From Alphaproteobacteria bacterium (lineage in GTDB: Bacteria > Pseudomonadota > Alphaproteobacteria > MPNO01 > UBA830), in contig JAJEBT010000007.1 in NCBI GenBank assembly GCA_022822405.1, positions 53,042-117,041 on the forward strand: a DNA stretch of 64,000 nucleotides. Reading direction: 5' to 3'. A program made the position numbers and the translations under genes. A model generated the notes under the pieces. That model did not search any database, had not been told where the DNA came from, and saw only the letters and a program-made list of their open reading frames with translations. Position 1 is the stretch's first letter. Each line of letters opens with the position of its first letter. This document shows positions 5,648 through 64,000 of this stretch, piece by piece.

Positions 5648-6586
5648 TCAGCCGCGCTGGATGCCGTCATAGAGGAGCGCTTCGCCCATGCCTTCGGCAA
5701 GGCACCATTCGGCGAAGTTCTCGGGCTTCGATTCCCAGGTCGCGGCCTCCCAGTCGTCGTCAACCACGTCGGAATCGAAATCGTACTCCGCCGCGCCCCC
5801 CGAAGGGTTGTGGAAATACCAGAAATAGCACGACGAGATCGGGTGACGGCCCGGGCCGAGCATGGTCTTCCAGCCCTGCCGGGTCATGTTGTTGCCGCCA
5901 CCGAACAGATCGTGGATCGTGCCGACCTCGAAGGCGACATGGTGGAAGCCGCGCTTGCCGCCCCCGGGATTGAGCAGAAACAGGTTGTGGTGGTGGTGCG
6001 CCGCACTGCACCGCGTGAAATAGCCGCGCCCGGGATACATGTCGGTGACCCTGAAGCCGAGGCGGTCGACATAGAACTCCTTGTGGGCCTCGAGCTCGTC
6101 GGTCACATAGACGACGTGCGAGACCTCGAGTGGCCGCGCACGGTCGACTCTCGGCGCGCGCCGGTTCACGCGCGTCGCCCGGCCGGGCACGTTGACGTCC
6201 TGCTCGGGCGCCGCGACCGGCCGATTCCTGGTGACGCGGAAGGCGAGGCCGAAGCCTAGCGGATCGGTAGTCCGGATGCCGCCTTCGGCGTCACGCCGCA
6301 CCTCGTGATCCGGAGACAGGGCGTCCTCCAGCGCATCGATATCTGCGGCGGCTTGCACCCCGAACGTGACCTCGCGCAGGGTGGCGTCGACATCGGCGCC
6401 GACGGGCGGAGGAAGATCGGGATCATCGGCCGAACGCAGTTCTATCGTGGCGCCGTTGGCGGCGCACCAAGCGGCATGGCCGCTCCCGCCACCGTCAGGC
6501 TCCAGCCCGAAATCGGTCCAGAAACGGGACGCCGCGTCACGATCGCGCACACCATAGATCAGCTTGTCCACGCCCGTGTGATTCAT
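5648..6586 (-). CDS. VOC-superfamily protein (glyoxalase/extradiol dioxygenase fold)
   Basis: 312 residues with two vicinal-oxygen-chelate modules. The first starts at residue 1 (DKLIYGVRDRDAASRFW). The second starts at about 155 (LEVSHVVYVTDELEAHKEFY) and carries candidate metal ligands: His in SHVVYV, a His-rich AAHHHH stretch, HHVAFEV, and a late Glu in AAEYDF. This is the layout of type I extradiol dioxygenases and related lyases/isomerases, but the substrate is not readable. It is the first gene of the unit with the CoxMSL hydroxylase (27-base gap, same strand). That suggests a shared oxidative pathway, perhaps hydroxylation of a ring followed by cleavage. Family firm, reaction open. Confidence 0.8.
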   Translation of the reverse strand: MNHTGVDKLIYGVRDRDAASRFWTDFGLEPDGGGSGHAAWCAANGATIELRSADDPDLPPPVGADVDATLREVTFGVQAAADIDALEDALSPDHEVRRDAEGGIRTTDPLGFGLAFRVTRNRPVAAPEQDVNVPGRATRVNRRAPRVDRARPLEVSHVVYVTDELEAHKEFYVDRLGFRVTDMYPGRGYFTRCSAAHHHHNLFLLNPGGGKRGFHHVAFEVGTIHDLFGGGNNMTRQGWKTMLGPGRHPISSCYFWYFHNPSGGAAEYDFDSDVVDDDWEAATWESKPENFAEWCLAEGMGEALLYDGIQRG

Positions 6587-6664: not shown

Positions 6665-8221
6665 CTAGCCGAGCGCAGCGACGGCGGCGAGCACCAGGAT
6701 CGCGACCACAACCCGGGCAGGCCACGCGCGTCCCGGCGCAGTCCGGTTCGCAGCCGGCTCCACGGGCGCGCTACCCTCCTGCCTGCGCGCGGCGGCGTCC
6801 GCCGCCGATCTCTCGAGCTCCTTCAGGACCTGCGGAAACCGCTCGAGAGCATCGAGCAACCCGTCCGCGGCCTCGCGCAGGCGGGCTTCGGCCCCGTCAC
6901 CCGAGCGCACCCACGATTCGACGAGCGGCCGCGCCAGCTCCCACATGTTGAGGCCCGGGCAGAGGCCGCGCCCGACGCCTTCGGCGACCAGCATGGTCTT
7001 CTGGAGAAGCAGGAGTTGGGGCTGGGTCTGCATGTCGAAACGCCGCGTCACCGCGAACAGCTGGGCGAGCAGGCGGGCCAGCGAGATCTCGCCGAGCGGC
7101 AGGCCAAGAATGGGCTCCGCGATCGAGCGCGCCGCCTGTGCGAATTCCGCCGGCGAGTGGTGCGGCGGCACGTAGCCGGCGCGCAGGTGCGCGCGCGCCA
7201 CCCGGTCGTAGTCGCCGGTCAGGAAACCGTGCAGCATGTCGGCAAGATACCGGCGCGACGCGAGGTCGAGGCGGCCCATGATGCCGAAATCCACGGCATG
7301 AACGACGCCGTCTTCGTCGACGAACAGGTTGCCCGGGTGCAGATCGGCGTGGAAGAAGCCGTCTCGGAACACCTGCAGGAAGAAGACCCGGGCAAGGCTG
7401 GCCACGACCTCCCCGGGGTCGACGCCGTTGCCGTCCTCTCCGCCGATGCGGTCGATCGGGATCCCGTCCACCCAGCGCATCGTGAGCACGCGGCGGCCCG
7501 TGCGCTGCCAGTCGACCTCCGGCACGGAAAAATACGCCTCGTCGGCGAAGTTGACGCGGAGCTCGTCGGCCGCCGCCCCCTCGAGCCGGAGGTCCATCTC
7601 CATCTCGACCGAGCGCGCGATCGTCTCCACGGCGTCGGCGGGCCGCAGGCGCCGGAACCGCGGCAGGCGCCGCTCGATCAGGCGGGCGGCCCATCGCGCA
7701 AGGCCGAGGTCGCGCGCGAACGCATCCTCGATCTCCGGGCGCAGCACCTTCACCGCGACCTCCACGCCCTCCGTGGTGGTTGCGCGATGGACCTGGGCGA
7801 TGGACGCGGCGGCAACCGCCTCGTCCTCGAATTCGGAAAACAGCTCGTCGAGCGGCTGTTCGAACTCGCGCTCGATGGCGGTCCGGACCTCGCCGCCGCC
7901 GATCGACGGCATGTCGTCCTGGAGCGTCGCGAGGTCGTCGGCCATCTCCTCGCCGACCAGGTCGGGACGAACCGAGAGGGCCTGGCCGATCTTGACGAAG
8001 GCGGGCCCTAGCGCGATCAGCGCCGTCCGCAGCCGCTCGCCGCGGCGCATGCCGGCGACCGCGCGGCTCGGCGGCGCCAGCAGCAGCCAGCCGGCGGCGC
8101 GGACGGGAAGGCGCGGGGCGCCGAAGCGTTCGAGAACGAAGGCCGCATCGTGCCGCGCAAGCACGCGGAACACGGTCACGGCCCGCCTAAGGTGTCGCAT
8201 GCCCTGCAATGCCGCCGTCAT
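6665..8221 (-). CDS. ubiB: UbiB-family ABC1 atypical kinase, ubiquinone biosynthesis
   Basis: 518 residues, normal for UbiB, an atypical protein-kinase-like ATPase needed for ubiquinone synthesis at the inner membrane. The ABC1 hallmark KxGQ appears as KIGQALSVRPDL at about 77-88. It is followed by the Ala-rich loop (AAASIAQVHRA), the invariant Lys in VAVKVLRP, the catalytic-loop equivalent FFHADLHPGNLF and the metal-binding VDFGIMGRL. A C-terminal hydrophobic segment (ARVVVAILVLAAVAAL) fits the membrane anchor of the family. It starts 25 bases after ubiE on the same strand, the standard ubiE-ubiB arrangement in alphaproteobacteria. An in-frame ATG at residue 8 is an alternative start. Confidence 0.93.
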   Translation of the reverse strand: MTAALQGMRHLRRAVTVFRVLARHDAAFVLERFGAPRLPVRAAGWLLLAPPSRAVAGMRRGERLRTALIALGPAFVKIGQALSVRPDLVGEEMADDLATLQDDMPSIGGGEVRTAIEREFEQPLDELFSEFEDEAVAAASIAQVHRATTTEGVEVAVKVLRPEIEDAFARDLGLARWAARLIERRLPRFRRLRPADAVETIARSVEMEMDLRLEGAAADELRVNFADEAYFSVPEVDWQRTGRRVLTMRWVDGIPIDRIGGEDGNGVDPGEVVASLARVFFLQVFRDGFFHADLHPGNLFVDEDGVVHAVDFGIMGRLDLASRRYLADMLHGFLTGDYDRVARAHLRAGYVPPHHSPAEFAQAARSIAEPILGLPLGEISLARLLAQLFAVTRRFDMQTQPQLLLLQKTMLVAEGVGRGLCPGLNMWELARPLVESWVRSGDGAEARLREAADGLLDALERFPQVLKELERSAADAAARRQEGSAPVEPAANRTAPGRAWPARVVVAILVLAAVAALG

Positions 8222-8246
8222 GCCGAACCGCCATGCTCCGGCCGGC

Positions 8247-9008
8247 CTAGTCGACGCGCCAGGCGGAGTGGATGCGGACGATCCCGCCGCTCAGCGAAAG
8301 GTGGGTGACATTGCCGAAGCCCGCCTCGCCGATCTCGGCGGCCAGCTGGTCGGGGCCCGGAAACGCCCGGATGCTCTCCGCAAGATAGCGGTAGGCGTCG
8401 CTGTCTCCGGCGATCAGGCCGCCGAGCCGCGGAAGCGCGTGGAAGGACCAAGCGTCATAGAAAGGCCGGAGCAGCGGCAGCACGGCGGGGCTGAACTCGA
8501 GGCACAGGAAATGGCCGCCGGGGACGAGAACGCGCCGCATCTCCGCCAGCGCCGCCGGCCGCCGCGCGACATTGCGCAGTCCGAACGCGATCGTGCAGAC
8601 ATCGGCGCAGGAGTCGCGGACGGGCAGGGCCTGCGCATCCCCGCAGATCTGGGGCAGAGGTTCGAGGATGCCGCGGTCGAGGCGGCGGTCGAGACCGGCC
8701 TGCAGCATCTTCTCGTTGACGTCGCAGACGATCGCCTCACCGCCGCCGCGGGCGAGAAAGGCTGCAGCGATGTCGCCGGTGCCGCCCGCCACGTCGACGA
8801 GGCGCATGCCGGGGCGCGGGGCGATCCGGGCGACCAGGGTCGACTTCCACAGCCGGTGGAGGCCGCCCGACATCAGGTCGTTCATCAGATCGTAACGACC
8901 CGCAACGCTGTCGAAGACGCGGCCGACGAGGCCGCCATGCTCGGACTCCGCCACCCGCCGGAACCCGAAAGCAACGCCATCGTCGTCGCGATCGGTGGAA
9001 AGGCTCAT
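8247..9008 (-). CDS. ubiE: Demethylmenaquinone/ubiquinone C-methyltransferase UbiE
   Basis: 253 residues, matching UbiE, the SAM-dependent C-methyltransferase of ubiquinone (and menaquinone) biosynthesis. Visible signatures are VFDSVAGRYDLMNDLMSGGLHRLWK near 31-55, motif I VDVAGGTGD at about 71-79, and the family-diagnostic FGLRNV, LEFS and YRYLAESI segments toward the C-terminus. It is the first gene of a ubiE-ubiB unit and is divergent from mutM with only 46 bases between the two starts, so promoters for both must share that short space. No defect is visible. Confidence 0.95.
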   Translation of the reverse strand: MSLSTDRDDDGVAFGFRRVAESEHGGLVGRVFDSVAGRYDLMNDLMSGGLHRLWKSTLVARIAPRPGMRLVDVAGGTGDIAAAFLARGGGEAIVCDVNEKMLQAGLDRRLDRGILEPLPQICGDAQALPVRDSCADVCTIAFGLRNVARRPAALAEMRRVLVPGGHFLCLEFSPAVLPLLRPFYDAWSFHALPRLGGLIAGDSDAYRYLAESIRAFPGPDQLAAEIGEAGFGNVTHLSLSGGIVRIHSAWRVD

Positions 9009-52734: not shown

Positions 52735-53880
52735 TTACCGCCTCCCTTTGTTCAGAGGCTCCCGGTACTCCTCGAGCCGCTCCGCCACAGGAGGCGCTAC
52801 CAGTCCAGGTTCGCCGGGAAGCGCGACACGCCCGCCGTCGATACCCAGAACATCGCCACATAGCTCCGTCCGAAGCGGGTTCTCGTTGACGTCCATCTCG
52901 CACGTGGTCGAATTGCCGAGCGCCGCCGCAATAGACAACGCGGCCATCTGACCAACCGCGGTTCCCATGAAGTGAGGCCAAAGCACCACCCCGTCCGGAA
53001 GCTGATTGGACAGCTTCAGAGCACCCGTCACGCCCCCCCATTTGGCAACATCGGGCTGGACATACCTTAATCCAGCCCGCGCCATCCGCAGGAACTCCTC
53101 GACGCCGTAGATGTTCTCGCCGCCCGCCAACGGGATCGACGTCGCCTTCGCAAGTTGCTCCCATTCCCCCAATCCCGAGTTGGCCGGTATAGGTTCCTCG
53201 GAGAACAAAGGATCGAATTCCTCCAGCGACTTGAGCATGCTCTCGGCATGCGGCCGATCCCAGGTCTGATTGTTATCCAGCATGATGCTCGTGCCCGCCG
53301 GCCGAATGGAGGAAGCCTTTTCGACGAAGTCCCGATCGGCATCGTCATCGAACCCGATCTTCAACTTGAACAGGGATTGGCCCCAGTCGGCATGTTGCAG
53401 CATCAGGCGCTCGAGGTCTGGGGGATTGATCGAGCTCGCATAGCACGCTGCGCTCGCGTCATCCAACCCCGTATGATCCGCGAAGGTTGAACCGGCGCTA
53501 CGCAGCGCAAGGTCCCACAGCGCAATATCGATACCTGCCAACAAGTGCTCGAAAACCTCAAGCTGACCGACATGAAGGAAGTACGTCGACAGCTTCGAAC
53601 GAAGGAACCCGTCAACTTCCTCGGGCTCGGTGAAGGTAACGCCTTCGAGGCGCGGTGCGACCACATCTTCTATAAGGTGGGTTTTGTGGAGGTTTGCACG
53701 GGGCGGGAAGTTTGCCCAGACCTCGCCCCAACCACGACAGCCCTGATCATCGTCTATCCGGACCAACAACGCCGGGCGGGTCGGCATCGACCCGAGCGCC
53801 ATGTCGGGGCTGACCCCGCCGGCGGCTCGAATTGGGAGCGCTTCGATTTCTTTTATTCTGATGGGCCGGTTGAAGCTCAT
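52735..53880 (-). CDS. Enolase-superfamily protein of the mandelate racemase group, probable acid-sugar dehydratase
   Basis: 381 residues. The capping domain is residues 1-130. The barrel has KxK at about 172-174 (FKLKIG), metal ligands Asp 202 (DNNQTW), Glu 228/229 (SEEPIP) and Glu 255 (GGENIYG), and the Asp/His dyad region QPDVAKWGG (about 275-283) with a later PHFMG His. That set is the mandelate racemase subgroup, in which most members dehydrate aldonic or uronic acids. It is the last gene of the tctCBA-sulfatase unit, 17 bases after the sulfatase. A role after desulfation of a sugar acid is inferred; the exact substrate is unknown. Confidence 0.86.
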   Translation of the reverse strand: MSFNRPIRIKEIEALPIRAAGGVSPDMALGSMPTRPALLVRIDDDQGCRGWGEVWANFPPRANLHKTHLIEDVVAPRLEGVTFTEPEEVDGFLRSKLSTYFLHVGQLEVFEHLLAGIDIALWDLALRSAGSTFADHTGLDDASAACYASSINPPDLERLMLQHADWGQSLFKLKIGFDDDADRDFVEKASSIRPAGTSIMLDNNQTWDRPHAESMLKSLEEFDPLFSEEPIPANSGLGEWEQLAKATSIPLAGGENIYGVEEFLRMARAGLRYVQPDVAKWGGVTGALKLSNQLPDGVVLWPHFMGTAVGQMAALSIAAALGNSTTCEMDVNENPLRTELCGDVLGIDGGRVALPGEPGLVAPPVAERLEEYREPLNKGRR

Positions 53881-53897
53881 GAACTCAAATTTCGCCG

Positions 53898-55403
53898 TCA
53901 GGGGACCCGAATAGCGCGGGGCACCAACTCGTCCATGTACCTCCTGCCCTCTTCCTGTGTCAGGTAGTTCTCCGGCGGGAAATCCAGGCAGAGATCCCAG
54001 TCGTCGCCGGTCTCCTCCATGTGCTTCCCTATGCGTTCATCAAAATCGTCCATCAGCCTGGTCAGTGAACCGTCATCGGCAAGGTTTTTGATCTCGTCAG
54101 GATCATTTTGGAGATCAAACAGCATTTTGCGACGCTCGGGTTGACGCACATAGAGCCAGTCCTTTGTCCGGATCCCGCGCTCGGGCATGCAGGTAAACTC
54201 CGAAATGTCACCGTCCAGCATCTTCATCGACTGATACATCACCGCATCGCGGATCTCCTCCGCCGTCCCGTCCAGGAGAGGCAGATAACTCGTCCCGTGC
54301 ACGGAATCCGGGATGGGAATGCCGCACAGCTCGAGCAGGGTGGGCATGGTATCGACGGCGACATCGATCAGCGCGTCCACCTTTTTGCCGGCCGGAAACC
54401 TGCCGGGATAACGAACGATGAACGGGACCTGCATGGCCGCCCGATACGCCGTCTTCTTGATGCCGCAGTAGTATCCATGCTGACCAAGCATGTCGCCATG
54501 ATCGCTGAGGAAGATCACGATGGTGTCCTCGACGATGTCCAGCCGGTCCAGAGCATTCAGGACGCGGCCCACATTGTGGTCGACGCCGGTGATCATGCCG
54601 TAGTACTCGGCAATGAATTTTCGGGTCTCTTCCTCTGTCTCCTGTTCGCCTTGCGGTTTGTGTCCGTCGCCGGCGTGGCTGTGGTCTTCGGACTTGAGGT
54701 TTGCCGCGTAGTCGTACCTCAAGCGCTCTTGGCGGGCCGCTTCGTGTTCCTCGGGGCTGAGAATACTGGGCGGCAATTCGATCCCCGCCGGATCATAGAG
54801 GTTCCTGAGATGGTCGGGCATGACGTTCGGGAAGTGAGGCGGCCCGTAACAGACAAACCCGAAAAAGGGATTGCCGTCATCCTTCGCAACCGATCGCTCA
54901 ATGAAATCGATCAGATGCTCGGTTTGGTACTCAGGCTCCCAACGCGGGCAGTGATAGGGCTGATCGTCATCTTTGTAGAAGATGGACTTGAGATAGTAGT
55001 GTCCGCGGTTGAAGCCGATGAAATAATCGAACCCGATCCGCCTCTCTCCCGGCGGGACGAACCCGGGTCGCGGACCGCCCTCCAGATGCCACTTACCGAC
55101 GTATCCGGTGTGATACCCCGCGTCCTTCAGGAGCCGCGCCAGGAATATCTGATCGGCGCGAAGCGGGAAGTGGTTCTGGTACATGCCGTGCCCCTGAGCG
55201 TACGTGCCGGTGAACAGCGACGCCCGAAACGGGCAGCAGACCGGATAGGAAACATGAGCATCCGTAAAATGGACGCCCTCGTTGGCCAGTCGGTCGATGT
55301 AAGGGGTTTTGACAATCGGGTTGCCGGCGCACCCCATGGCGTCGGCGCGCATCTGGTCAGGATAAAAGATCAGAATATTGGGCCGATTTTCATTGCCGCT
55401 CAT
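53898..55403 (-). CDS. Type I sulfatase (formylglycine-dependent), no signal peptide
   Basis: 501 residues from the ATG at 55401-55403 (another ATG one codon before); GGAGG lies upstream. The ORF track runs on into tctA. The formylglycine motif C-x-P-x-R is Cys56-Cys-Pro-Phe-Arg60 followed by ASLFTG. The metal Asp residues are in FYPDQ (about 15-16) and LSDHGD, where the later D-H ligands also appear; GKWHL holds the substrate-side Lys/His. No signal peptide is visible, so it should act in the cytoplasm on an imported sulfate ester, unlike most polysaccharide sulfatases. It overlaps tctA by 14 bases. An unseen maturase (anaerobic SME or FGE) is required. Confidence 0.9.
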   Translation of the reverse strand: MSGNENRPNILIFYPDQMRADAMGCAGNPIVKTPYIDRLANEGVHFTDAHVSYPVCCPFRASLFTGTYAQGHGMYQNHFPLRADQIFLARLLKDAGYHTGYVGKWHLEGGPRPGFVPPGERRIGFDYFIGFNRGHYYLKSIFYKDDDQPYHCPRWEPEYQTEHLIDFIERSVAKDDGNPFFGFVCYGPPHFPNVMPDHLRNLYDPAGIELPPSILSPEEHEAARQERLRYDYAANLKSEDHSHAGDGHKPQGEQETEEETRKFIAEYYGMITGVDHNVGRVLNALDRLDIVEDTIVIFLSDHGDMLGQHGYYCGIKKTAYRAAMQVPFIVRYPGRFPAGKKVDALIDVAVDTMPTLLELCGIPIPDSVHGTSYLPLLDGTAEEIRDAVMYQSMKMLDGDISEFTCMPERGIRTKDWLYVRQPERRKMLFDLQNDPDEIKNLADDGSLTRLMDDFDERIGKHMEETGDDWDLCLDFPPENYLTQEEGRRYMDELVPRAIRVP

Positions 55404-56913
55404 CATGCATCCTCCGCCCGCTGGAATATTTTTGCTTCGCCCAGCGGGCCAGCGGCCCGCCGAAGATCGCCAGCGCCAGCGCGGCATAAATCCCGAGACC
55501 GATCGGCGTGTTGAAGAATTCACCGACGCTTCCGTCCGCGATGACCAGAGACTGGCGAAGTGAGTTCTCCAGGATCGGTCCAAGCACGAATCCGATGCTG
55601 AGCGGCGCAATTGAATATCCCAGCTTCCGAACCACATAACCGAGAATACCGGCCCCCAACAGCACACCGACGTTGAAGAAGCTGTTGGAGACGCTGAAGA
55701 TCCCGACGAAGCTCAGAAGCAGAACCGTGGGCACGATAAACGTCGTCGGCACCTGGATCAGCTTGGCCGCAAAACGGATCGCCATCAGCCCGATGACCAT
55801 CATCAAAATGTTGATGACGAAAAGGCCGATGAAGATGGCGTTCATCATGTCCGGCCGCTCGGCAAAGAGTTTGGGTCCAGGCGCCAGCCCGTGGATGAGA
55901 AACGCCCCCAACAGAACGGCGGCGGCGGGGCTGCCCGGAACCCCGAGGGTCAGTGTGGGCACCAGGGCACCGCCAACGGTGGCGTTGTTGGCGGTTTCGG
56001 GGGCAACGATGCCTTCGTCGTGCCCGGTGCCGAACTTCTCCGGCGTCTTGGACCGTCGCTTGGCCTCGGAATAAGCAAAGAACGCGGCCACAGCGGCCCC
56101 TTCGCCGGGGATGATTCCGATGACGGTTCCCAAAACGGACGACCGGAACAGCACGTCCTTCATCTTCATCAGCTTGCCCCAGCCCGGCAGTTTCACAGTC
56201 AGGCTGGTCTGATCGAAGTCGAGTTTCTGAAGGGCACGTTCAGCGCCAATCAACACCTCGGACACGGCAAACACCCCGACGAGAAACGGGACGAGGGGGA
56301 TGCCTTCGAACAAGTGATAGCTGCCAAAGGTGTAACGTTCGGTTCCGTTCAGCTCGTCAAGGCCCCAGGTCGTCAGGAAGATGCCGAGTGCGCCGACCAG
56401 CAGCCCCTTGGACAAGCTTTCGCCAGCCACCCGAACGACAACAACGAGACCAAACACACTGATGGCCAAGAACTCTCGCGGTCCGAATTTGATCGCAACG
56501 GTCGCCAGGATTGGCGCGATAAAGGCAAGGCAAATAACGCTGAACAGACCGCCGATGATCGAACCGGTCAACGAGAGGCCGAGTGCCTCACCACCTTTGC
56601 CGGCCTTGAACATCTTATTGCCATCCTGGACGGTGGCGATGGCGGCTCCGGTTCCGGGAATGCCGACGGCGATCGCCGAGATGGATCCGCCGTAGATGGC
56701 CGCGGAATAGATCCCGAGAAGAAGAATGATTGCCGCGATCGGTTCCAGGTGGAAGGTAAACGGCAGTGCCAGGGCAATGGCAATGGGCGGACCAAGACCC
56801 GGCAGCACGCCGACGATGAGACCGAGAACGATGCCGCCGACTAGCAGCGCAAGCGTTATCGGCTCGGCAAGCTGGCCGATGGATTGGGCGACAACGTCAA
56901 ATCCCGCGAACAT
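55390..56913 (-). CDS. tctA: Tripartite tricarboxylate transporter large permease (TctA family)
   Basis: 507 residues with about twelve membrane helices. The TctA signature GVLPGLGPPIAIALALPFTF occurs near residue 40 and its repeat IGIIPGEGAAVAAFFAYSEAKR in the second half, followed by NNATVGGALVPTLTLGVPGSPAAAVLLGAF. It is the large membrane unit that moves substrate delivered by TctC, driven by an ion gradient. It overlaps the sulfatase gene at the 3' end, tying uptake to desulfation. TctB lies 12 bases upstream. Substrate preference is set by TctC. Confidence 0.93.
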   Translation of the reverse strand: MFAGFDVVAQSIGQLAEPITLALLVGGIVLGLIVGVLPGLGPPIAIALALPFTFHLEPIAAIILLLGIYSAAIYGGSISAIAVGIPGTGAAIATVQDGNKMFKAGKGGEALGLSLTGSIIGGLFSVICLAFIAPILATVAIKFGPREFLAISVFGLVVVVRVAGESLSKGLLVGALGIFLTTWGLDELNGTERYTFGSYHLFEGIPLVPFLVGVFAVSEVLIGAERALQKLDFDQTSLTVKLPGWGKLMKMKDVLFRSSVLGTVIGIIPGEGAAVAAFFAYSEAKRRSKTPEKFGTGHDEGIVAPETANNATVGGALVPTLTLGVPGSPAAAVLLGAFLIHGLAPGPKLFAERPDMMNAIFIGLFVINILMMVIGLMAIRFAAKLIQVPTTFIVPTVLLLSFVGIFSVSNSFFNVGVLLGAGILGYVVRKLGYSIAPLSIGFVLGPILENSLRQSLVIADGSVGEFFNTPIGLGIYAALALAIFGGPLARWAKQKYSSGRRMHDERQ

Positions 56914-56925
56914 CGCTCCCGCCTG

Positions 56926-57387
56926 CTATGTGAGTTGAACACGAAGGACCTGGGTGAAGACGAGGTACACGATGCCCGACATCACCAGCAACGATACGTA
57001 CATCCGCGGTGACCTCACGCCCATGGCCAGCGCGCAAGCCGGGCCAATGAGGATCAACATGGGAATGAAGCTCCAGAGGGACCAAACGAGGTAGCAGGCA
57101 ACCGCTACGACCAGGACAAGAAGGCCGCGCCGTGCTTCGCCACCATTCTCAAAGACCGAAGCGCCCTGATCGGTGCCCGCAAAGCCCCGGAATACATAGG
57201 CCCCGATCACGATCGCCGAGCAGAGGCCGATGAAAGCCAGCATGAGCTGCGGAAAGAATTTGGAGGGCAAGCCTGTACTGGCGAGCAATCCGGAGGTTTG
57301 AAATGTCTCCGCTTCCAGCGCGAAGAAAACGGCCGCCACGATCACCAGGATATTGAACGCTATATTCGCGGCGCGCTGCGGAATCAT
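56926..57387 (-). CDS. tctB: Tripartite tricarboxylate transporter small permease (TctB family)
   Basis: 153 residues, four membrane segments (ANIAFNILVIVAAVFFALEAETF, LMLAFIGLCSAIVIGAYVF, RGLLVLVVAVACYLVWSLWSFIPMLILIGPACALAMGV, YVSLLVMSGIVYLVFTQVL), as in TctB. The conserved SKFFPQLMLAF turn is also present. It pairs with TctA to make the membrane part of the transporter. It lies between tctC and tctA and is set off from tctC by a strong hairpin that could lower its expression relative to the binding protein. Confidence 0.88.
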   Translation of the reverse strand: MIPQRAANIAFNILVIVAAVFFALEAETFQTSGLLASTGLPSKFFPQLMLAFIGLCSAIVIGAYVFRGFAGTDQGASVFENGGEARRGLLVLVVAVACYLVWSLWSFIPMLILIGPACALAMGVRSPRMYVSLLVMSGIVYLVFTQVLRVQLT

Positions 57388-57405
57388 GTCTCCACCCCAT
57401 GAGGT

Positions 57406-57445
57406 TGGTGCGCCGGGGACCCGGGAACTGCGCCCCGGCGCACCA
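57406..57445 (-). terminator. 13-bp hairpin between tctC and tctB, likely attenuating/stabilising element
   Basis: TGGTGCGCCGGGG and its exact complement form a 13-bp stem around a 14-base loop, just after the tctC stop. No U-tract follows. Such intercistronic stems commonly let the binding-protein message accumulate over the permease message by protecting its 3' end or causing partial termination. Confidence 0.6.
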
Positions 57446-57453
57446 GCTTGTTT

Positions 57454-58440
57454 CTAGTTCTTCACCAACAGGCCAAGACTCGCCAGGAGCGGCGAATAGA
57501 GATCGATACCGTCCTGAATTTTCTTGCGGGTGGCCTCGATGCCATGAACCCAGTCATAGCTCACGCTCTTGGGAACTTTCGCGATGAACGCCGGCTTTCC
57601 CATCACCTTGCTGGCTTCAAGCAGTCGGTCGACGATGTGCTGGGGTGTGCCTGCTTTCACCGCCAAGCCGCCGTGGACCCATGTCCCCGCGTTCTTGCCC
57701 GGGAATACTTCCCCAACCGTGCGGACCCCGGGAAGATCCTTGGCATAGAAGGCCTTGCGGTTGTTGTCCAAGATGACCAACGGACGAACCTTGTCGCCAT
57801 ATTTGTGGATCGAGGCCACCTGCCCGACCGCAACGTCGACCTGGCCGCCGAGCAAGCCGGTCATGGTTGCCGGAACGGTCTTCAGGGCAAGCGTCTTGAA
57901 CTCCAGCCCGAACTCTTTTGCCATCTGCACGGCCGAAAGGTTGGGCGGCGCACCCAGGTTATTGACACCGATGGTGAGTTTTTTGGCCTTGGCGCCCTTA
58001 ACAAACTCCTCAAATGTCTTGTATGGGGAATCGGCGCGCACATAGAGAGCGTTTGACGCGGAGATCCCTGCGAACAGCGGAATGAAGTCCCGCAGCGGCT
58101 TGTAGGGGACCTTGCGTGTCAACGGCACGACCATGAAGCTCGGCGGCGACCAGTTGAACAATGTATAGCCGTCCGCCGGCGCTTTCAGGACAAACATGGT
58201 GGCTGGAATGTGAGCGCCACCAGGCTTGTTCAGAACGTTGACCGGTACACCCAACTCTTTGCTGAGCGCTTCGGCGTTCATCCGCGCGACGATATCGGCG
58301 TTACCACCGGCCTTGAACGAGACGACGATGCTTATCGGCTTTGTCGGCCATTTGTCTTGAGCGATTGCCTTCCCGCCTATTCCCGTTGTCAGGAGAAAGG
58401 TGAGTGCAACCGTGGTTGCTGCTGATTTGAGGAATTTCAT
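57454..58440 (-). CDS. tctC: Periplasmic solute-binding protein of the tripartite transporter (TctC/Bug family)
   Basis: 328 residues with a Sec signal peptide (KFLKSAATTVALTFLLTTGIGGKAIA, cut before QDKWP). The Bug-family opening WPTKPISIVVSFKAGGNADIVAR (substrate carboxylate loop) and GGQVDVAVGQVAS are visible. TctC proteins capture carboxylates in the periplasm, usually di- or tricarboxylates or sugar acids. GGAGGG lies before the ATG. It is the first gene of the tctCBA-sulfatase-dehydratase unit and has the conserved 28-bp motif about 40 bases upstream, so it is likely induced by the transported compound through the GntR protein. Confidence 0.92.
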   Translation of the reverse strand: MKFLKSAATTVALTFLLTTGIGGKAIAQDKWPTKPISIVVSFKAGGNADIVARMNAEALSKELGVPVNVLNKPGGAHIPATMFVLKAPADGYTLFNWSPPSFMVVPLTRKVPYKPLRDFIPLFAGISASNALYVRADSPYKTFEEFVKGAKAKKLTIGVNNLGAPPNLSAVQMAKEFGLEFKTLALKTVPATMTGLLGGQVDVAVGQVASIHKYGDKVRPLVILDNNRKAFYAKDLPGVRTVGEVFPGKNAGTWVHGGLAVKAGTPQHIVDRLLEASKVMGKPAFIAKVPKSVSYDWVHGIEATRKKIQDGIDLYSPLLASLGLLVKN

Positions 58441-58479
58441 GAAGCCCTCCTTGCTTCGGAATTTCGATAAACCGGGCTG

Positions 58480-58507
58480 TATAAAGTGCTATACGTCTAT
58501 ACCTTAA
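58480..58507. promoter_or_regulatory. Conserved 28-bp motif, copy 1: probable GntR operator/promoter of the tct unit
   Basis: TATAAAGTGCTA...TATACCTTAA, 40 bases before tctC. It matches copy 2 (63818-63845) at 24 of 28 positions, while the flanks differ. It includes GTCTATAC, which fits the GTxTAxAC consensus of HutC-type GntR regulators, a second near copy (GCTATAC), and a GTATA-n6-TATAC inverted repeat at its left side. It lies in the 109-base gap between the SDR stop and the tctC start. Confidence 0.65.
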
Positions 58508-58549
58508 TAAAAGGACGGAAAAAGGTCAACGGATTTCTTCACGCTCGGC

Positions 58550-59341
58550 TCACAGGGGGCGCCGGGCGAGCGAGTATGTTTGACCGGTAGGACCGCCGAG
58601 AGGGCGAGTTGCCAGGTAAAGCGCAAACTCGCCTATTTCGTCAGGATGTTTCAGGCGCTCTGACGGCGGGAAGTTGGGCGGCGTCTCGCTGCCGAAACGT
58701 TCCAGGACCTCATCGGGCGTCGCCGCCCCAGGTGCTTCGCGGGTGAAGTTGGTTGTCGCTACCGGACCCGGGATAAGATTGTTTACTTCGATCCGGCGCG
58801 GCCAAAGTTCGTTGGCCAGTGACTCTGTAAACATGTGCAGCCCGGCCTTGGCGACATGGTACGAGCTGTTCCGGTTACCGGCGCTCAGGCCCACACCGGA
58901 GGAGAGATTGATGATCTTTGCTCCGTCTGCGAGACCTGGAAGGAGAAACCGGGTAACCAGATAGGGGCCGCGCACATTCACCTCGACCGTCTTCCACCAC
59001 CGATCCGGATCGGATTCCGCGACTGGACTGGTCTCAAGCTGCGCACCGGCATTGTTGACCAGCACATGGACCTCCCCGAACTCGGCGAGAATTTCGTTAC
59101 AGACGGATTCCGTTGCCGTCGGATCGGAAAGATCGGCGACACCGATGAAGCAACGGACACCGAGGTCCGCGATAACCTCCTGCGTCGCTTCAAGCTCAGC
59201 GCGCGTGCGGGAGCAAATGGCCAGATCCGCACCGGCCCTGGCAAGCGCCAGGGCGATTGATCGGCCAATTCCGCGTCCCGCCCCGGTAACAACCGCCACT
59301 TTGCCGGTCAGCGGCCTATCGTCCACCAAATCACTACCCAT
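58550..59341 (-). CDS. Short-chain dehydrogenase/reductase, copy 1
   Basis: 263 residues from the ATG at 59339-59341 (GAGG 8 bases before); the ORF track extends it upstream into the transketolase gene. The NAD(P) loop is TGAGRGIG (about 19-26), the NNAG motif is LVNNAGAQ, the catalytic Ser is in INLSSGVG and the Y-x3-K pair is SSYHVAKAG. It is a classical oxidoreductase for hydroxyl/keto groups. It ends the transketolase operon, 25 bases after the TK1 N-subunit. Probably oxidises or reduces a sugar-derived intermediate. Confidence 0.9.
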   Translation of the reverse strand: MGSDLVDDRPLTGKVAVVTGAGRGIGRSIALALARAGADLAICSRTRAELEATQEVIADLGVRCFIGVADLSDPTATESVCNEILAEFGEVHVLVNNAGAQLETSPVAESDPDRWWKTVEVNVRGPYLVTRFLLPGLADGAKIINLSSGVGLSAGNRNSSYHVAKAGLHMFTESLANELWPRRIEVNNLIPGPVATTNFTREAPGAATPDEVLERFGSETPPNFPPSERLKHPDEIGEFALYLATRPLGGPTGQTYSLARRPL

Positions 59342-59366
59342 CGTTAAATCCTCGCTACTTTCAAGT

Positions 59367-60212
59367 TCACGGCCCGCCGGCCAAAGCTCCGATTTTCGCA
59401 TCGATTTCCGCCAATCCCGCCTCCCAGTCCGCCGTGTCTTGCGCGACGTAGTGCGCCATGGGCAGCGCTTCCTGCAGGCAGTCAATTCCAGCGAAGATCC
59501 GGGTATCGCAAACCATGACATAAGGTTTACCGGTAACGCCCCTGGCCTCCTCGAACGCCTCAAGCACTTCGGTGACGCTGTTTCCGTTGACCCGCCGCGC
59601 AAAGCACCCAAACGCTTCAAATTTCTCCGGAACCGGCTCGACACTCATCACGTTTGTCGTGGCGCCTGAAGCCTGAAGGTCGTTGTTGTCGATGATGTAG
59701 ACCAGATTGGAGAGCTTTTGGTGAGCGGCGAACATGGCCGCCTCCCAGACATTGCCCTCCTGGAGCTCACCATCGGAGAACAGACAATAGATTCGCTTAT
59801 CGGTTCCCCTCTGCCGCTCCGCCCAGGCGATACCAGCCGCCTGCGACGGCCCCTGTCCCAACGAACCGGCGGTGATTTCAAACCCCAGCTGCCCCTCGAT
59901 GGGACTCTGATCGATCTTCGTGCCGTCGGCGTTGTAGGTCCGCAATTCCTCAAGCGTGTATGAGCCGTGCTCCGCCAACGCCGCATAGGTCATGATCGCG
60001 TCGTGCCCGTTCGACAGCACAAACCGGTCATGAAACCAGCCCCTGCCGTCGGGACGCAGCTCGTCAAAGTAGAGGCACGCCGCGATATCGGCCAAGGCGA
60101 CGCCCTGCCCCGCGTAGCCGCCACGTTGCATGCAGATGTCCAGAGTATTGCGCCTGATCTTGGCTGCAAGGATTTCCAAATTCTGGACGTGGCTGTTGGA
60201 ACCGGTGCTCAT
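59367..60212 (-). CDS. Transketolase N-terminal subunit, pair 1
   Basis: 281 residues from the ATG at 60210-60212, which overlaps the stop of the C-subunit (ATGA); the ORF track starts too early. It is the ThDP-binding half of a split transketolase: IRRNTLDICMQRGGYAGQG near the start, SNGHDAIMTYAAL, GSLGQGPSQAAGIAWAE, and the Mg/ThDP motif SDGELQEGNVWEAAMFA ... IIDNNDLQ. It pairs with the subunit encoded just before it. The gene order is C then N, the reverse of pair 2 and of most split transketolases. Donor and acceptor sugars are unknown. Confidence 0.92.
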   Translation of the reverse strand: MSTGSNSHVQNLEILAAKIRRNTLDICMQRGGYAGQGVALADIAACLYFDELRPDGRGWFHDRFVLSNGHDAIMTYAALAEHGSYTLEELRTYNADGTKIDQSPIEGQLGFEITAGSLGQGPSQAAGIAWAERQRGTDKRIYCLFSDGELQEGNVWEAAMFAAHQKLSNLVYIIDNNDLQASGATTNVMSVEPVPEKFEAFGCFARRVNGNSVTEVLEAFEEARGVTGKPYVMVCDTRIFAGIDCLQEALPMAHYVAQDTADWEAGLAEIDAKIGALAGGP

Positions 60213-61153
60213 TGGCCGGCCCCCCGGATACGATCCGCTAGTCCCACGGCATCCAGTCCAAGCTGTTCCCGGATATACGGCAGCGTACCGCCGGGCGCCC
60301 AACTGCCGGGCACCCCAAGACGTGTGATGCGAGGCCCGCCGCCAACATCGGAAACCACCTCGGCGACAAGGCTCCCGAGACCGGTGACGATCTGGTGGTT
60401 CTCTATGGTGACGATCCGATCGTGGGCAAAGCAGAAGTCCGCCAACCCGGTCTCATCGACCGGCTTGACCGTCGGGACGTGAAGAAGCGAATGATCGATC
60501 CCGCGATCCTCGAGTATTTCGGAGGCTTCCAATGCCCATTGGGTGGCGTGGCCGGTGGCAATGATGCCGATTCCGCTGCCGGAGCGGAGGCGATACGTCT
60601 TGCCCAGTTCAAACTTGAACTTCTGCGGATCGAGAAGCCGCGGAGTATTGCCGCGATGACCCCGCATATAAACCAGGCCGGGCAGATCGACGGCGACGTC
60701 GAGCGCCTGCTTGAAGTCGGTGACATCCATTGGGTCGATGACGGTCGTGTTCGGGACCGACCGCAACATGCCCAAATCCTCTGCTGCCTGGTGATGAATC
60801 CGCGCCGGATTGGCGATGCCCGGCGTAAATCCGACAACAATACTCGTGTGCGGACCGGTTCCCATGCAGATCACCATCTGGTCATAGGCGCGCCGGGTCG
60901 CGTAGACGGCGAACGTGGTCGCCACCGGGACAAAACCCGCCTTGGCGACACCGGCGGCGACGGAGATCAGGTTTTGTTCCGCCATCCCGACGTCGAGATG
61001 CTGATCCGGCAGCTCTTCCTTCACGCGAATGATCTGGGTGTACCTGCTCAAGTCCGCACTCACCAAGACGACATCCTTGCGGCGCGAGCAAAGATCGAAG
61101 CTGATCCCATCGAACGGGGCGCCGTCGAAAGTCGTCTCCCCCTCAAGCAGCAT
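60209..61153 (-). CDS. Transketolase C-terminal subunit, pair 1
   Basis: 314 residues, containing the pyrimidine-binding half (VVLVSADLSRYTQIIRV ... HLDVGMAEQNLISVAAGVAKAG, with the catalytic Glu) and the C-terminal domain (SLLHVPTVKPVDE, ENHQIVTGLGSLVAEVV). It completes the active site of the N-subunit encoded 3' to it. The substrate-binding loop FTPGIANPARIHHQAAEDLGML differs from the matching loop of pair 2 (FLPGVATLLGVSHQAIEDVAIM), so the two pairs probably handle different sugars. It follows SDR copy 2 by 35 bases. Confidence 0.92.
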   Translation of the reverse strand: MLLEGETTFDGAPFDGISFDLCSRRKDVVLVSADLSRYTQIIRVKEELPDQHLDVGMAEQNLISVAAGVAKAGFVPVATTFAVYATRRAYDQMVICMGTGPHTSIVVGFTPGIANPARIHHQAAEDLGMLRSVPNTTVIDPMDVTDFKQALDVAVDLPGLVYMRGHRGNTPRLLDPQKFKFELGKTYRLRSGSGIGIIATGHATQWALEASEILEDRGIDHSLLHVPTVKPVDETGLADFCFAHDRIVTIENHQIVTGLGSLVAEVVSDVGGGPRITRLGVPGSWAPGGTLPYIREQLGLDAVGLADRIRGAGQ

Positions 61154-61188
61154 ATGCTGTCCTCCTTCGGCTCTTCCGTTGGCTCCGA

Positions 61189-61908
61189 TCAGCCGTTGAT
61201 AATCCCGCCATCGATGTTGATGACCTGTCCCGTCATGTAGGAGGCGTCCTCGGAGATCAGAAATGCGATCACGCTCGCAACCTCCTCCGGCCGGCCGAAT
61301 CGGCCCAGGGGAATTGAAGACATGAGCGCCTCCCGACCGCGTTCGTTGATCAGTTCCCTCGACATGGTCGTATCGATGAAGCCGGGCGCCACGGCGTTGA
61401 CGTTGATGCCTCGATCGCCGACCCGACGCGACAGTGCGCGGGTTAAACCGACGATGGCCCCCTTGGCCATCGAGTACGCGATGCGATCGGGCACGCCCCG
61501 GTTAAAGCCCATCGACGACGTGAAGACGATACTGGCGCCATCCCGTATATGCGGCAGCGCCGCACCGGCCAGGTCCAATGCATTTGTCGCGTTGGCCTGC
61601 ATGGTTCGGTCGTAGATATCCCGGCTCTCCGGCTTGAGGTCGTCGGCGACAAATATGCCGGCCAGATGGACCAGCGCGGCGATCTCTTCGCCGTCCGGAA
61701 GTGCATCAACACAGGCCTCCCGGTCATCGAGCCGGCTCTCTTTACTGGTCGCGCCGCCCGGCAACTCTCCACTCAGGCGGTCAAGCCGGCCCTGATCAAC
61801 ATCCACAAGGTGCAGGCGCCAACCGTCATTTGCGAGCCGACGTGCGAGGGCCGTCCCGATCCCGCCGGCGGCACCCGTAACCATAGCGAGTGGTGCTCGG
61901 TCGGCCAC
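61189..61908 (-). CDS. Short-chain dehydrogenase/reductase, copy 2
   Basis: 239 residues from a GTG at 61906-61908. The cofactor loop is TGAAGGIG at about 11-18, the acidic end of strand 2 is LVDVDQG (favouring NAD), the catalytic Ser is in FTSSMGF and Y-x3-K is AYSMAKG. The C-terminal end YMTGQVINIDGGI is typical. It lies between transketolase pair 2 (11-base gap) and pair 1 and is not closely similar to SDR copy 1, so the two probably catalyse successive or separate oxidations. Confidence 0.9.
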   Translation of the reverse strand: MADRAPLAMVTGAAGGIGTALARRLANDGWRLHLVDVDQGRLDRLSGELPGGATSKESRLDDREACVDALPDGEEIAALVHLAGIFVADDLKPESRDIYDRTMQANATNALDLAGAALPHIRDGASIVFTSSMGFNRGVPDRIAYSMAKGAIVGLTRALSRRVGDRGINVNAVAPGFIDTTMSRELINERGREALMSSIPLGRFGRPEEVASVIAFLISEDASYMTGQVINIDGGIING

Positions 61909-61918
61909 TGATCGGACC

Positions 61919-62911
61919 TCAGCCCTTTTTCCCGAAAACGTCTCGGGCGGCCTTGACGATCGCCGTGCTATCCAATCCGTACTTTTTCATGAGATACGGG
62001 GTGGAGCCCCCTTCGGCGAACCGGTCGGCCAAGCCCACCCGCTTGAAGGGCAGACCGATCCCGGCGTCGCACAGGACTTCCGCCACGGCAGATCCCAGGC
62101 CACCGATCACCGAGTGATTTTCCGCGGTTACGATGGCGCCCGTCGCCTTGGCGCGGTCGATGACCAGATCGGCGTCCAGCGGTTTGATCGAGGCCATATC
62201 GACGACGGAGGCTTCAATTCCGCCGGCGGCCAACCGGTCTGCGGCGGCGAGGGCCTCCGTGACCGATAGACCCGCTGCGATGATCGCGAGGTCGCCGCCG
62301 TCCCGGGCCAGAATGCCCTCGCCCTTCCTGAATTCCTTGGGAACGATATCGTTCTCCGGCGGGGCCTCGGGTCGTTTCAGACGAATGTATACCGGCCCGT
62401 CATGGGCCAGCGCCGCGTCAACGGCCGAAGCGTGATATTCGGGGCCGGACGGATCAAGGACCATCAGGTTGGGTACGGCCCGCATGATCGCCACGTCCTC
62501 GATGGCCTGATGTGAAACACCGAGCAGGGTCGCCACCCCGGGCAGGAATCCCACGATTTTGACCGGCAGGTTGGGATAGGCGGCCTGCATGGTGATCTGG
62601 TCGCAGCATCGCTTCGTGGCGAACGAGCAGAAGGTGTGCACGAACGGGATCTCGCCCGCCCGCGCCATGCCGCTTGCCAGCCCGATCATGTTGGCTTCCG
62701 CGATGCCGACGTTGTGGTAGCGTTCCGGCAGTTCGTCGCGAAAGATGTCGGTTTCCGTCGGCGTGGCCAGATCGGCCGTCAGGGCGACGATGCGCTTGTC
62801 TTTTTTGGCCGCTGCCAGAAGCGCGTCGCCGTATGACCGGGGGATGGGCTTGTGGGTCCGGTTGATGAAGTCGGCGGCTTCGAACTTCTCCAGTTGATGG
62901 GTCTGGCTCAT
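61919..62911 (-). CDS. Transketolase C-terminal subunit, pair 2
   Basis: 330 residues. Pyrimidine domain RIVALTADLATPTETD ... YHNVGIAEANMIGLASGMARAG with the catalytic Glu, and the C-terminal domain with SVVDMASIKPLDADLV and ENHSVIGGLGSAVAEVL. It overlaps its N-subunit (62908-63750) by four bases in the usual N-then-C order. Relative to pair 1 it has a longer N-terminal lead (SQTHQLEKFEAADFINRTHKPIPRSYG). The acceptor is unknown; candidates include phosphorylated or free short aldoses produced by the island pathway. Confidence 0.92.
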   Translation of the reverse strand: MSQTHQLEKFEAADFINRTHKPIPRSYGDALLAAAKKDKRIVALTADLATPTETDIFRDELPERYHNVGIAEANMIGLASGMARAGEIPFVHTFCSFATKRCCDQITMQAAYPNLPVKIVGFLPGVATLLGVSHQAIEDVAIMRAVPNLMVLDPSGPEYHASAVDAALAHDGPVYIRLKRPEAPPENDIVPKEFRKGEGILARDGGDLAIIAAGLSVTEALAAADRLAAGGIEASVVDMASIKPLDADLVIDRAKATGAIVTAENHSVIGGLGSAVAEVLCDAGIGLPFKRVGLADRFAEGGSTPYLMKKYGLDSTAIVKAARDVFGKKG

Positions 62912-63750
62912 GAGAGGTTTTCCTTCAGAACGGCGATGGCGTTCTCCGCCACCTCGGGCGGAAACATGAGCTGATGCGCCATGAGACCTTCCAGGGCGGG
63001 GACCCCTTTTCCAACCAGGGTTCTTGCGTTGATGAACGCAGGCCTGCCCTTGGTTTCCCGGGCCGCATCGAGGGCGTTCAGGATCTCGGCCATGTCATTG
63101 CCGTCGATGTCATGCACTGCAAAGCCGAAACTCTCGAGTTTGTCCGCAACCGGGCGGAGGGAGACCACATTATCCATGTGTCCCTCGCACTGCATCTCGT
63201 TGAAGTCGAGAATGACGCAGAGATTGCCGAGGCCCCATGCGCCGGCGGACATGAGGGCTTCCCAAACCTGTCCCTCCTGCATCTCGCCGTCACCCAAAAC
63301 CACATAGCACCTCGTCGGACGGCCCTGACGCCGGGCCGCCAGCGCCGCGCCGACGGCGACCGAGAGGCCCTGGCCAAGCGAGCCGCAGGTCGCTTCGACA
63401 AACCGGCCCATGCGCTCCGACGCATTGATCTCCAATGGAGATCCGTCTTTGCAGTAGGTCGACAGCCGCCCGGTTTCGAAATAGCCGCGCTCAGCCAGCG
63501 CGGCGTAGAAGATGGCCGTGTTATGCGCGGTGGTCAGGAAGACGCGGTCGCGGTCTTCCCAATTCGGGTTCCCGGGATCGACGCGCGCCTCGGCGAAATA
63601 CAAGGCCGTGAAGATATCGGCCGAACCCAAGCCCTGTTGAACATAACCCTGGCCCGTCGGCGCAACCATCTCGGCCACCCGCAGGCGCAACTTCGCGGCG
63701 ATGCTCTCCAGCTCGGCGATATTGCGCTTTGGATTATCGGCTTGTGACAA
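62908..63750 (-). CDS. Transketolase N-terminal subunit, pair 2
   Basis: 280 residues from the TTG at 63748-63750, which has GAAGGGGG 5 bases upstream; the ORF track starts 16 codons earlier without support. ThDP domain: MVAPTGQGYVQQGLGSADI, TTAHNTAIFYAALAE, CGSLGQGLSVAVGAALAAR, and GDGEMQEGQVWEALMSA ... ILDFNEMQ. It is the first gene of the transketolase/SDR operon and is divergent from the GntR gene, with the conserved motif between them. A gene order of N-C-SDR is followed by the inverted C-N-SDR set. Confidence 0.9.
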   Translation of the reverse strand: MSQADNPKRNIAELESIAAKLRLRVAEMVAPTGQGYVQQGLGSADIFTALYFAEARVDPGNPNWEDRDRVFLTTAHNTAIFYAALAERGYFETGRLSTYCKDGSPLEINASERMGRFVEATCGSLGQGLSVAVGAALAARRQGRPTRCYVVLGDGEMQEGQVWEALMSAGAWGLGNLCVILDFNEMQCEGHMDNVVSLRPVADKLESFGFAVHDIDGNDMAEILNALDAARETKGRPAFINARTLVGKGVPALEGLMAHQLMFPPEVAENAIAVLKENLS

Positions 63751-63817
63751 CTCGACCCCCTTCGATTCGGAGGCCCGGGATCGGCAAATCCCTTGCAAAC
63801 AAAACCCGAATCGTGTA

Positions 63818-63845
63818 TATAAAGTGCTAGACCTTTATACCTTTA
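63818..63845. promoter_or_regulatory. Conserved 28-bp motif, copy 2: probable GntR operator between the regulator and the transketolase operon
   Basis: TATAAAGTGCTA...TATACCTTTA, in the 119-base gap between the divergent gntR and transketolase genes. It matches copy 1 at 24 of 28 positions and keeps the near-GTxTAxAC core (CTTTATAC) and the GCTAGAC half. It lies 25 bases before the gntR start, so it could also give autoregulation. Confidence 0.65.
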
Positions 63846-63869
63846 GTCACTGAAGATTCGAGAGTCAAC

Positions 63870-64000
63870 ATGAATCTCCCTGCGATGAAGCGAGAAGCCG
63901 TCCCTCTGCACGCCGAGGTGGCCTCACTTCTTCGCAATCAAATCATGTCCGGTACGCTGGCCCCGGGCGAGCAGCTGCCGCCCCTCAGCGAGCTCACCAG
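63870..64000 (+). CDS. GntR-family transcription regulator (N-terminal part, runs off the window)
   Basis: The first 43 codons encode the opening of a GntR winged-helix domain: PLHAEVASLLRNQIMSGTLAPG followed by LPPLSELT, the standard helix 1 and turn of GntR DNA-binding heads. The effector domain lies outside the window, so the FadR, HutC or other subgroup cannot be told from the protein; the GTxTAxAC-like half-sites hint at the HutC subgroup. It is divergent from the transketolase operon and a motif copy lies directly upstream, so it is the obvious regulator of the island. Confidence 0.88.
   Translation, partial: MNLPAMKREAVPLHAEVASLLRNQIMSGTLAPGEQLPPLSELT

Follow-up and report, generated by a model that had tools for sequence, protein, structure and literature searches.

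Two different split transketolase-like enzymes, here called TK1 and TK2, are encoded together near the end of the 64,000-nucleotide stretch of alphaproteobacterial DNA analysed here (the window; contig JAJEBT010000007.1, positions 53,042 to 117,041), the end of which coincides with the end of the contig; all coordinates below are positions in the window. We propose, with a probability of about one half, that they belong to a single catabolic regulon under the control of a GntR-family protein, devoted to a sulfated, carboxylated sugar whose carbon skeleton would be cut at two steps, by TK1 and by TK2. Both enzymes fall in a widespread branch of the transketolase family that has altered donor and head-group sites and is apparently uncharacterised; no characterised split transketolase lacking the equivalents of His26 and His100, the mark of this branch, was found in the literature searched. 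The cluster brings together two enzymes of this altered branch within a gene set that is well bounded.

Open reading frames and Pfam domains give the order TK2-N, TK2-C, SDR2, TK1-C, TK1-N, SDR1 on the minus strand, the same six-gene transcription order, with reversed subunit order, that the initial annotation had described. TK2-N (62908–63750) is the subunit of enzyme 2 that binds thiamine diphosphate (ThDP) through the PP domain (PF00456 Transketolase_N, E = 1.5e-38; 6YAK chain, E = 5.6e-66); its start codon is TTG at 63750, preceded by GGGGG. TK2-C (61919–62911) carries the Pyr and C-terminal domains (PF02779 Transket_pyr, 8e-33; PF02780 Transketolase_C, 5e-28; 6YAJ, 3.7e-70). The corresponding subunits of enzyme 1 are TK1-C (60209–61153; PF02779, 1.9e-22; 6YAJ, 1.4e-41) and, positioned after it, TK1-N (59367–60212; PF00456, 3.2e-36; 6YAK, 9.5e-44). 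By these Pfam and PDB matches each pair consists of adjacent genes for a PP-domain subunit and a Pyr/TKC-domain subunit, as expected of a split-gene transketolase, and the similarity to 6YAJ and 6YAK is enough to establish the fold. The genes of each pair overlap at an ATGA, which suggests translational coupling of the two subunits.

The two pairs are old and separate, as judged from the trees of their N and C subunits (57 and 56 rows, respectively), which agree with each other and in both of which the TK1 and TK2 clades are each supported at 100/100. TK1-N and TK2-N are 35.9% identical, and TK1-C and TK2-C 33.4%. The branch that unites TK1, TK2 and their relatives has support of 100/100 (N) and 98/97 (C); within it TK1 groups, on a long stem, with SDR-TkN-TkC clusters and others (92/80 and 98/92), and TK2 with pairs from Rhizobium SSA_523, Variovorax and the like. 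Subunit order follows this division: the C gene precedes the N gene in all 13 TK1-clade pairs, and the N gene comes first in all 37 others, made up of nine TK2 pairs and 28 further split pairs. Relative to the related loci L060 and L062, dN/dS is 0.08–0.15 for each of the four subunits, which indicates purifying selection. The view that the arrangement is no simple tandem duplication thus stands on the low identity and the separate clades, and a recent duplication with one inactive copy, an outcome that would have overturned it, is rejected by the trees and by dN/dS. The two differing substrate loops pointed out earlier, GVATLLGVSHQAIED and GIANPARIHHQAAED, are both present, and each is fixed across its clade except in one diverged pair (L102, described below).

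It had also been suggested that the subunits might exchange partners to give a mixed enzyme, with four combinations of N and C. The four subunits are probably co-expressed, and the split transketolase of C. hydrogenoformans (ChTK) was reconstituted from separately made subunits (PMC7661550). Against these points stand the congruence of the N and C trees, the overlap inside each pair, the identity of only 33–36% between pairs, and the occurrence of TK1 apart from TK2: one genome (G412) has TK1 without a TK2 ortholog, and another (G411) has a second TK1-type pair accompanied by SDR and TRAP genes. The mixed-enzyme claim is therefore unsupported, and partner swapping as the explanation of the cluster is very improbable; some cross-assembly in the cell is possible.

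The active sites were read against ChTK, AptAB and the full-length transketolase encoded in the same genome; E. coli transketolase numbers were given by matching motifs to that full-length enzyme, without superposition. In these alignments both TK1 and TK2 retain the ThDP/metal motif (GDGE/SDGE...N), His66, the catalytic Glu411 and His473. In every TK1 and TK2 row, however, His26 is replaced by Tyr and there is no His at position 100, so that the histidine pair of classical transketolases is missing. This loss is common to the whole branch sampled, whereas both residues are present in ChTK-N, AptA and the remaining split enzymes sampled from outside it. Asp469 is replaced in both enzymes. The motif RSFHR, which orients phosphate in the transketolases that act on phosphorylated sugars and reads RAFDR in a sulfofructose enzyme (PMC11659671), has become AYFTR in TK1 and RPFLR in TK2, both departures from the classical form; it is also altered in some split enzymes outside the branch, and by itself is not decisive. 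With the donor-side histidines both gone and the phosphate-binding motif mostly so, the donor need not be the usual ketose phosphate. It is likely, on this residue pattern, that the substrates of TK1 and TK2 are non-phosphorylated and differ from each other.

The same losses raise the question of whether these are acyl-type ThDP enzymes resembling 1-deoxy-D-xylulose-5-phosphate synthase (DXPS), with donors that lack a C1 hydroxyl. According to the authors of the ChTK study, residue 100 separates transketolase (His) from DXPS (Phe), and its replacement in a Geobacillus transketolase raises the use of pyruvate (PMC7661550). The absence of both histidines from all sampled branch members, though not from AptA or ChTK-N, fits such a role, as does the position of one member next to mtnK-mtnA and a RuBisCO-like gene, a setting in which a C1-substituted ketose is conceivable. 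But the residue at or near position 100 is Asn in TK2 and Ser or Gln in TK1 rather than Phe, neither enzyme is the single chain that DXPS is, and the SDR, idonate dehydrogenase and TRAP neighbours of relatives suit keto-sugar acids with a terminal hydroxymethyl group. An acyl-type donor seems improbable on balance, and ketol transfer is the chemistry adopted here.

The gene set is larger than the initially annotated range (59367–63750), extending downstream to genes for a transporter, a sulfatase and an enolase-superfamily protein and upstream to a divergent regulator. SDR2 (61189–61908; PF13561, E = 1.7e-49) has orthologs, among the loci compared, only in the close alphaproteobacterial loci L060–L062; SDR1 (58550–59341; PF00106, 8e-47), which lies just beyond the range, has homologs at 57–61% in several alpha- and gammaproteobacterial loci. 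Both encode short-chain dehydrogenases. The minus-strand run continues, after a gap, with tctC (57454–58440; PF03401, 7.6e-32), the periplasmic receptor of a tripartite tricarboxylate transporter, followed by a TctB-like small membrane subunit (56926–57387), named by position and size as the open reading frame between tctC and tctA, a place that it keeps in related loci, and a TctA-like large membrane subunit (55390–56913), named by sequence and position, 80–98% conserved in related loci. Next come a sulfatase (53898–55406; PF00884, 2.2e-59) with the type I formylglycine motif CxPxR (VCCPFRAS), and an enolase-superfamily (MR/MLE) protein (52735–53880; PF13378, 1.6e-39; best solved relative 3DDM, function unknown) that is probably an acid-sugar dehydratase. 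Its translation shows KLK, DNN, EEP, GGEN, QPD and PHF, candidates for the KxK, the three acidic metal ligands and the Asp-His dyad of the mandelate racemase subgroup. On the plus strand lies the 5' end of a GntR/UTRA-family regulator gene (63870–64000), which the end of the contig cuts short; all 43 encoded residues are identical to those of the L060 protein, and the L066 ortholog carries the Pfam GntR and UTRA domains.

Shared control of the two transcription units is indicated by an operator-like element, AAGGTATAAAGGTCTAGCACTTTATA, that lies upstream of TK2-N (63818–63843, minus strand) and recurs upstream of tctC, in the gap after SDR1 (58480–58505, minus strand). The 26-bp pattern AAGGTATARANGTNTAGCACTTTATA matches twice in the window and not once in 100 shuffles; because it was derived from its own two sites, the count shows only that these sites are far more alike than chance would make them. 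Independent support for one regulon comes from related loci, where the element also precedes both units in L060 and L062, precedes tctC in L061, and appears in degenerate form before both units in L066, L067, L068 and L098. The GntR protein is the putative ligand of this element. In L060 a third copy (6452–6477; 21 of 23 positions) lies just past the end of gntR, before 2-oxoacid dehydrogenase E1-like genes.

The TK1-C scan, which covered about 85,000 species genomes, yielded 11 orthologs at 75–96% identity, in metagenome-assembled genomes (MAGs) labelled Rhodospirillales, Rhodobacter, Alphaproteobacteria, Granulosicoccaceae, Gammaproteobacteria and Chromatiales. The set is kept, with its order rearranged, in MAGs of the Rhodospirillales, Rhodobacter, Granulosicoccaceae and Chromatiales. 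At the distant loci L064 and L066–L068 the TK2 genes, mostly with aldehyde dehydrogenase (ALDH) and enolase-superfamily genes, lie on one side of gntR and the tctCBA-sulfatase-TK1 genes on the other, in some cases with FMO-like, SDR1 and formylglycine-generating-enzyme (FGE) family genes behind TK1; some gammaproteobacterial loci hold an ALDH and an FGE-family gene in addition. Nine of the 11 TK1-holding genomes also have a TK2-C ortholog of at least 68% identity, counting that of L061, in which TK2-C is divided between the ends of two contigs (92% and 95%). The remaining two, which lack it, are those of L063, a MAG in which the locus contig is 7 kb long, and of L065 (G412), where TK1 lies amid TRAP and aconitase-X genes. 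Among 384 other genomes of the class, none has a TK2 ortholog at that threshold; the best matches are 60% for TK2-C and 45% for TK1-C. A gene for an FMO/Baeyer-Villiger-like monooxygenase lies near TK1 or TK2 in L063, L066–L068, L070 and L097, the copies in L067 and L068 being known only as unassigned open reading frames at the same position. One Rhodobacter MAG contains a second, diverged TK1-type pair (L102; G411:C45:46000-62000, 6818–8700) of 62–69% identity and C–N order, with SDR, epimerase and TRAP-like genes in place of TctCBA and the sulfatase.

It is conceivable that the two enzymes work in parallel, each handling a different isomer or imported compound and sharing only import and regulation. 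Their strongly different head-group motifs would accord with this, as would the occurrence of TK1 without TK2 in other transporter contexts (L065 and L102). The joint presence of TK1 and TK2 in nine of 11 genomes, mostly with one importer and a shared control element, speaks against parallel use, which we regard as unlikely, if a serious competitor. Since TK1 and TK2 are in one regulon and are largely inherited together, they most likely serve different steps of one pathway, and two cuts in series are preferred here over both parallel use and acyl-type donors. The earlier idea of two consecutive two-carbon transfers is supported in part, by two distinct, intact enzymes in one regulon, and is plausible.

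In the pathway that we infer, including its substrate, order of steps and acceptor, TctCBA would import an anionic sulfate ester, TctC being the gene product that points to uptake of a carboxylate. The sulfatase has no evident signal peptide, so sulfate would be removed in the cytosol; its nearest solved relatives include carbohydrate sulfatases. The enolase-superfamily dehydratase and SDR1, with SDR2 or ALDH in some versions, may then convert the sugar acid to keto intermediates, through dehydration by the former and oxidation by the SDRs, as their families would suggest. TK1 and TK2, two separate ThDP ketol transferases and each by homology probably an N2C2 heterotetramer like ChTK, have active sites that would no longer fit phosphorylated ketoses and may cleave carbon–carbon bonds at two different steps of the route. 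At each, a central aldehyde would accept a two-carbon unit, and the remainder would be a shorter aldehyde or keto acid. The conversion of 5-keto-gluconate to tartaric semialdehyde by a mutant E. coli transketolase (PMC12016104) indicates that sugar-acid chemistry is feasible for this family. If correct, the scheme would give uncultured Alpha- and Gammaproteobacteria a phosphate-free, two-cut degradation of sulfated acid sugars. A wider proposal is offered tentatively: that the branch as a whole comprises ketol (or acyl) transferases whose substrates are non-phosphorylated acid sugars or ketoses substituted at C1, and that this cluster would use two of these enzymes sequentially on a sulfated sugar acid in an undescribed route.

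Several observations weigh against the two-step regulon. No gene fixes the substrate, since the sulfatase, the dehydratase and the SDRs can be placed in broad families only, and enzymes without His26 and His100 might use a donor that is not a ketose carrying a hydroxyl at C1. TK1 has no strict need of TK2, given the loci that lack it, and the FMO-like gene of several loci has no clear place in a sugar-acid route. A search of the window's genome with the L066 query found no close FGE; the genome does hold general members of PF03781, a family that also includes EgtB-like proteins, but gave no passing match to an anaerobic sulfatase-maturing enzyme. Because the contig stops inside gntR, further genes may be missing.

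The cluster (52735–63870) has a G+C content of 60.3%, compared with 67.7% over the window's first 52 kb and 58–62% in the flanks of L060–L062. Either the cluster was recently taken from a relative of the bacteria that carry those loci, or the MAG contig is chimeric at this point.

Of known systems, ChTK (PMC7661550) is the closest solved relative of all four subunits and shares with them the two-subunit domain split and the ThDP residues. It retains the equivalents of His26, His100 and Asp469 that TK1 and TK2 lack, and the TK1 genes differ in their C–N order. The sulfofructose transketolase SqwGH of the sulfo-TK pathway (PMC11659671) is likewise split and serves two steps in a route for a sulfur sugar. 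There, however, one enzyme with the motif RAFDR is used twice on a sulfonate (C–S), whereas here there are two enzymes, neither with RAFDR, and a sulfate ester with its sulfatase; no gene for a sugar isomerase or sulfo-isomerase, such as the sulfoerythrulose isomerase that partners SqwGH, was recognised in the cluster. AptAB, the apulose-4-phosphate transketolase of the D-apiose cluster of E. coli SE15 (PMC13001218), is also split and is encoded, together with SDR genes, in a cluster for sugar catabolism. AptA keeps both histidines, its cluster has a kinase and an ABC importer, neither of which is present here, and identity to TK1 and TK2 is 32–34% for the N and 28–34% for the C subunits. Identity of either enzyme with SqwGH or AptAB is rejected by motifs, residues and gene content. 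Searches of the literature found no split transketolases in apionate or methylthioribose routes, and no such clusters with a sulfatase in sponge symbionts. Plasmids of Agrobacterium MA01 (L049) and Shinella (L040) carry a split transketolase flanked by mtnK-mtnA and a RuBisCO-like gene, and the L049 copy belongs to the His-lacking branch; this context suggests a transketolase-type step in methylthioribose breakdown. A further comparison is with the LysR-SDR-TkN-TkC clusters of Skermanella, Hartmannibacter, Rhizobium, Pantoea and Acinetobacter, for which no function was found in the literature searched. Their aligned members lack the same two histidines; the clusters belong to the sister group of TK1 and have an SDR neighbour, but they encode a single enzyme of about 38–40% identity, in N–C order, with TRAP or MFS transport.

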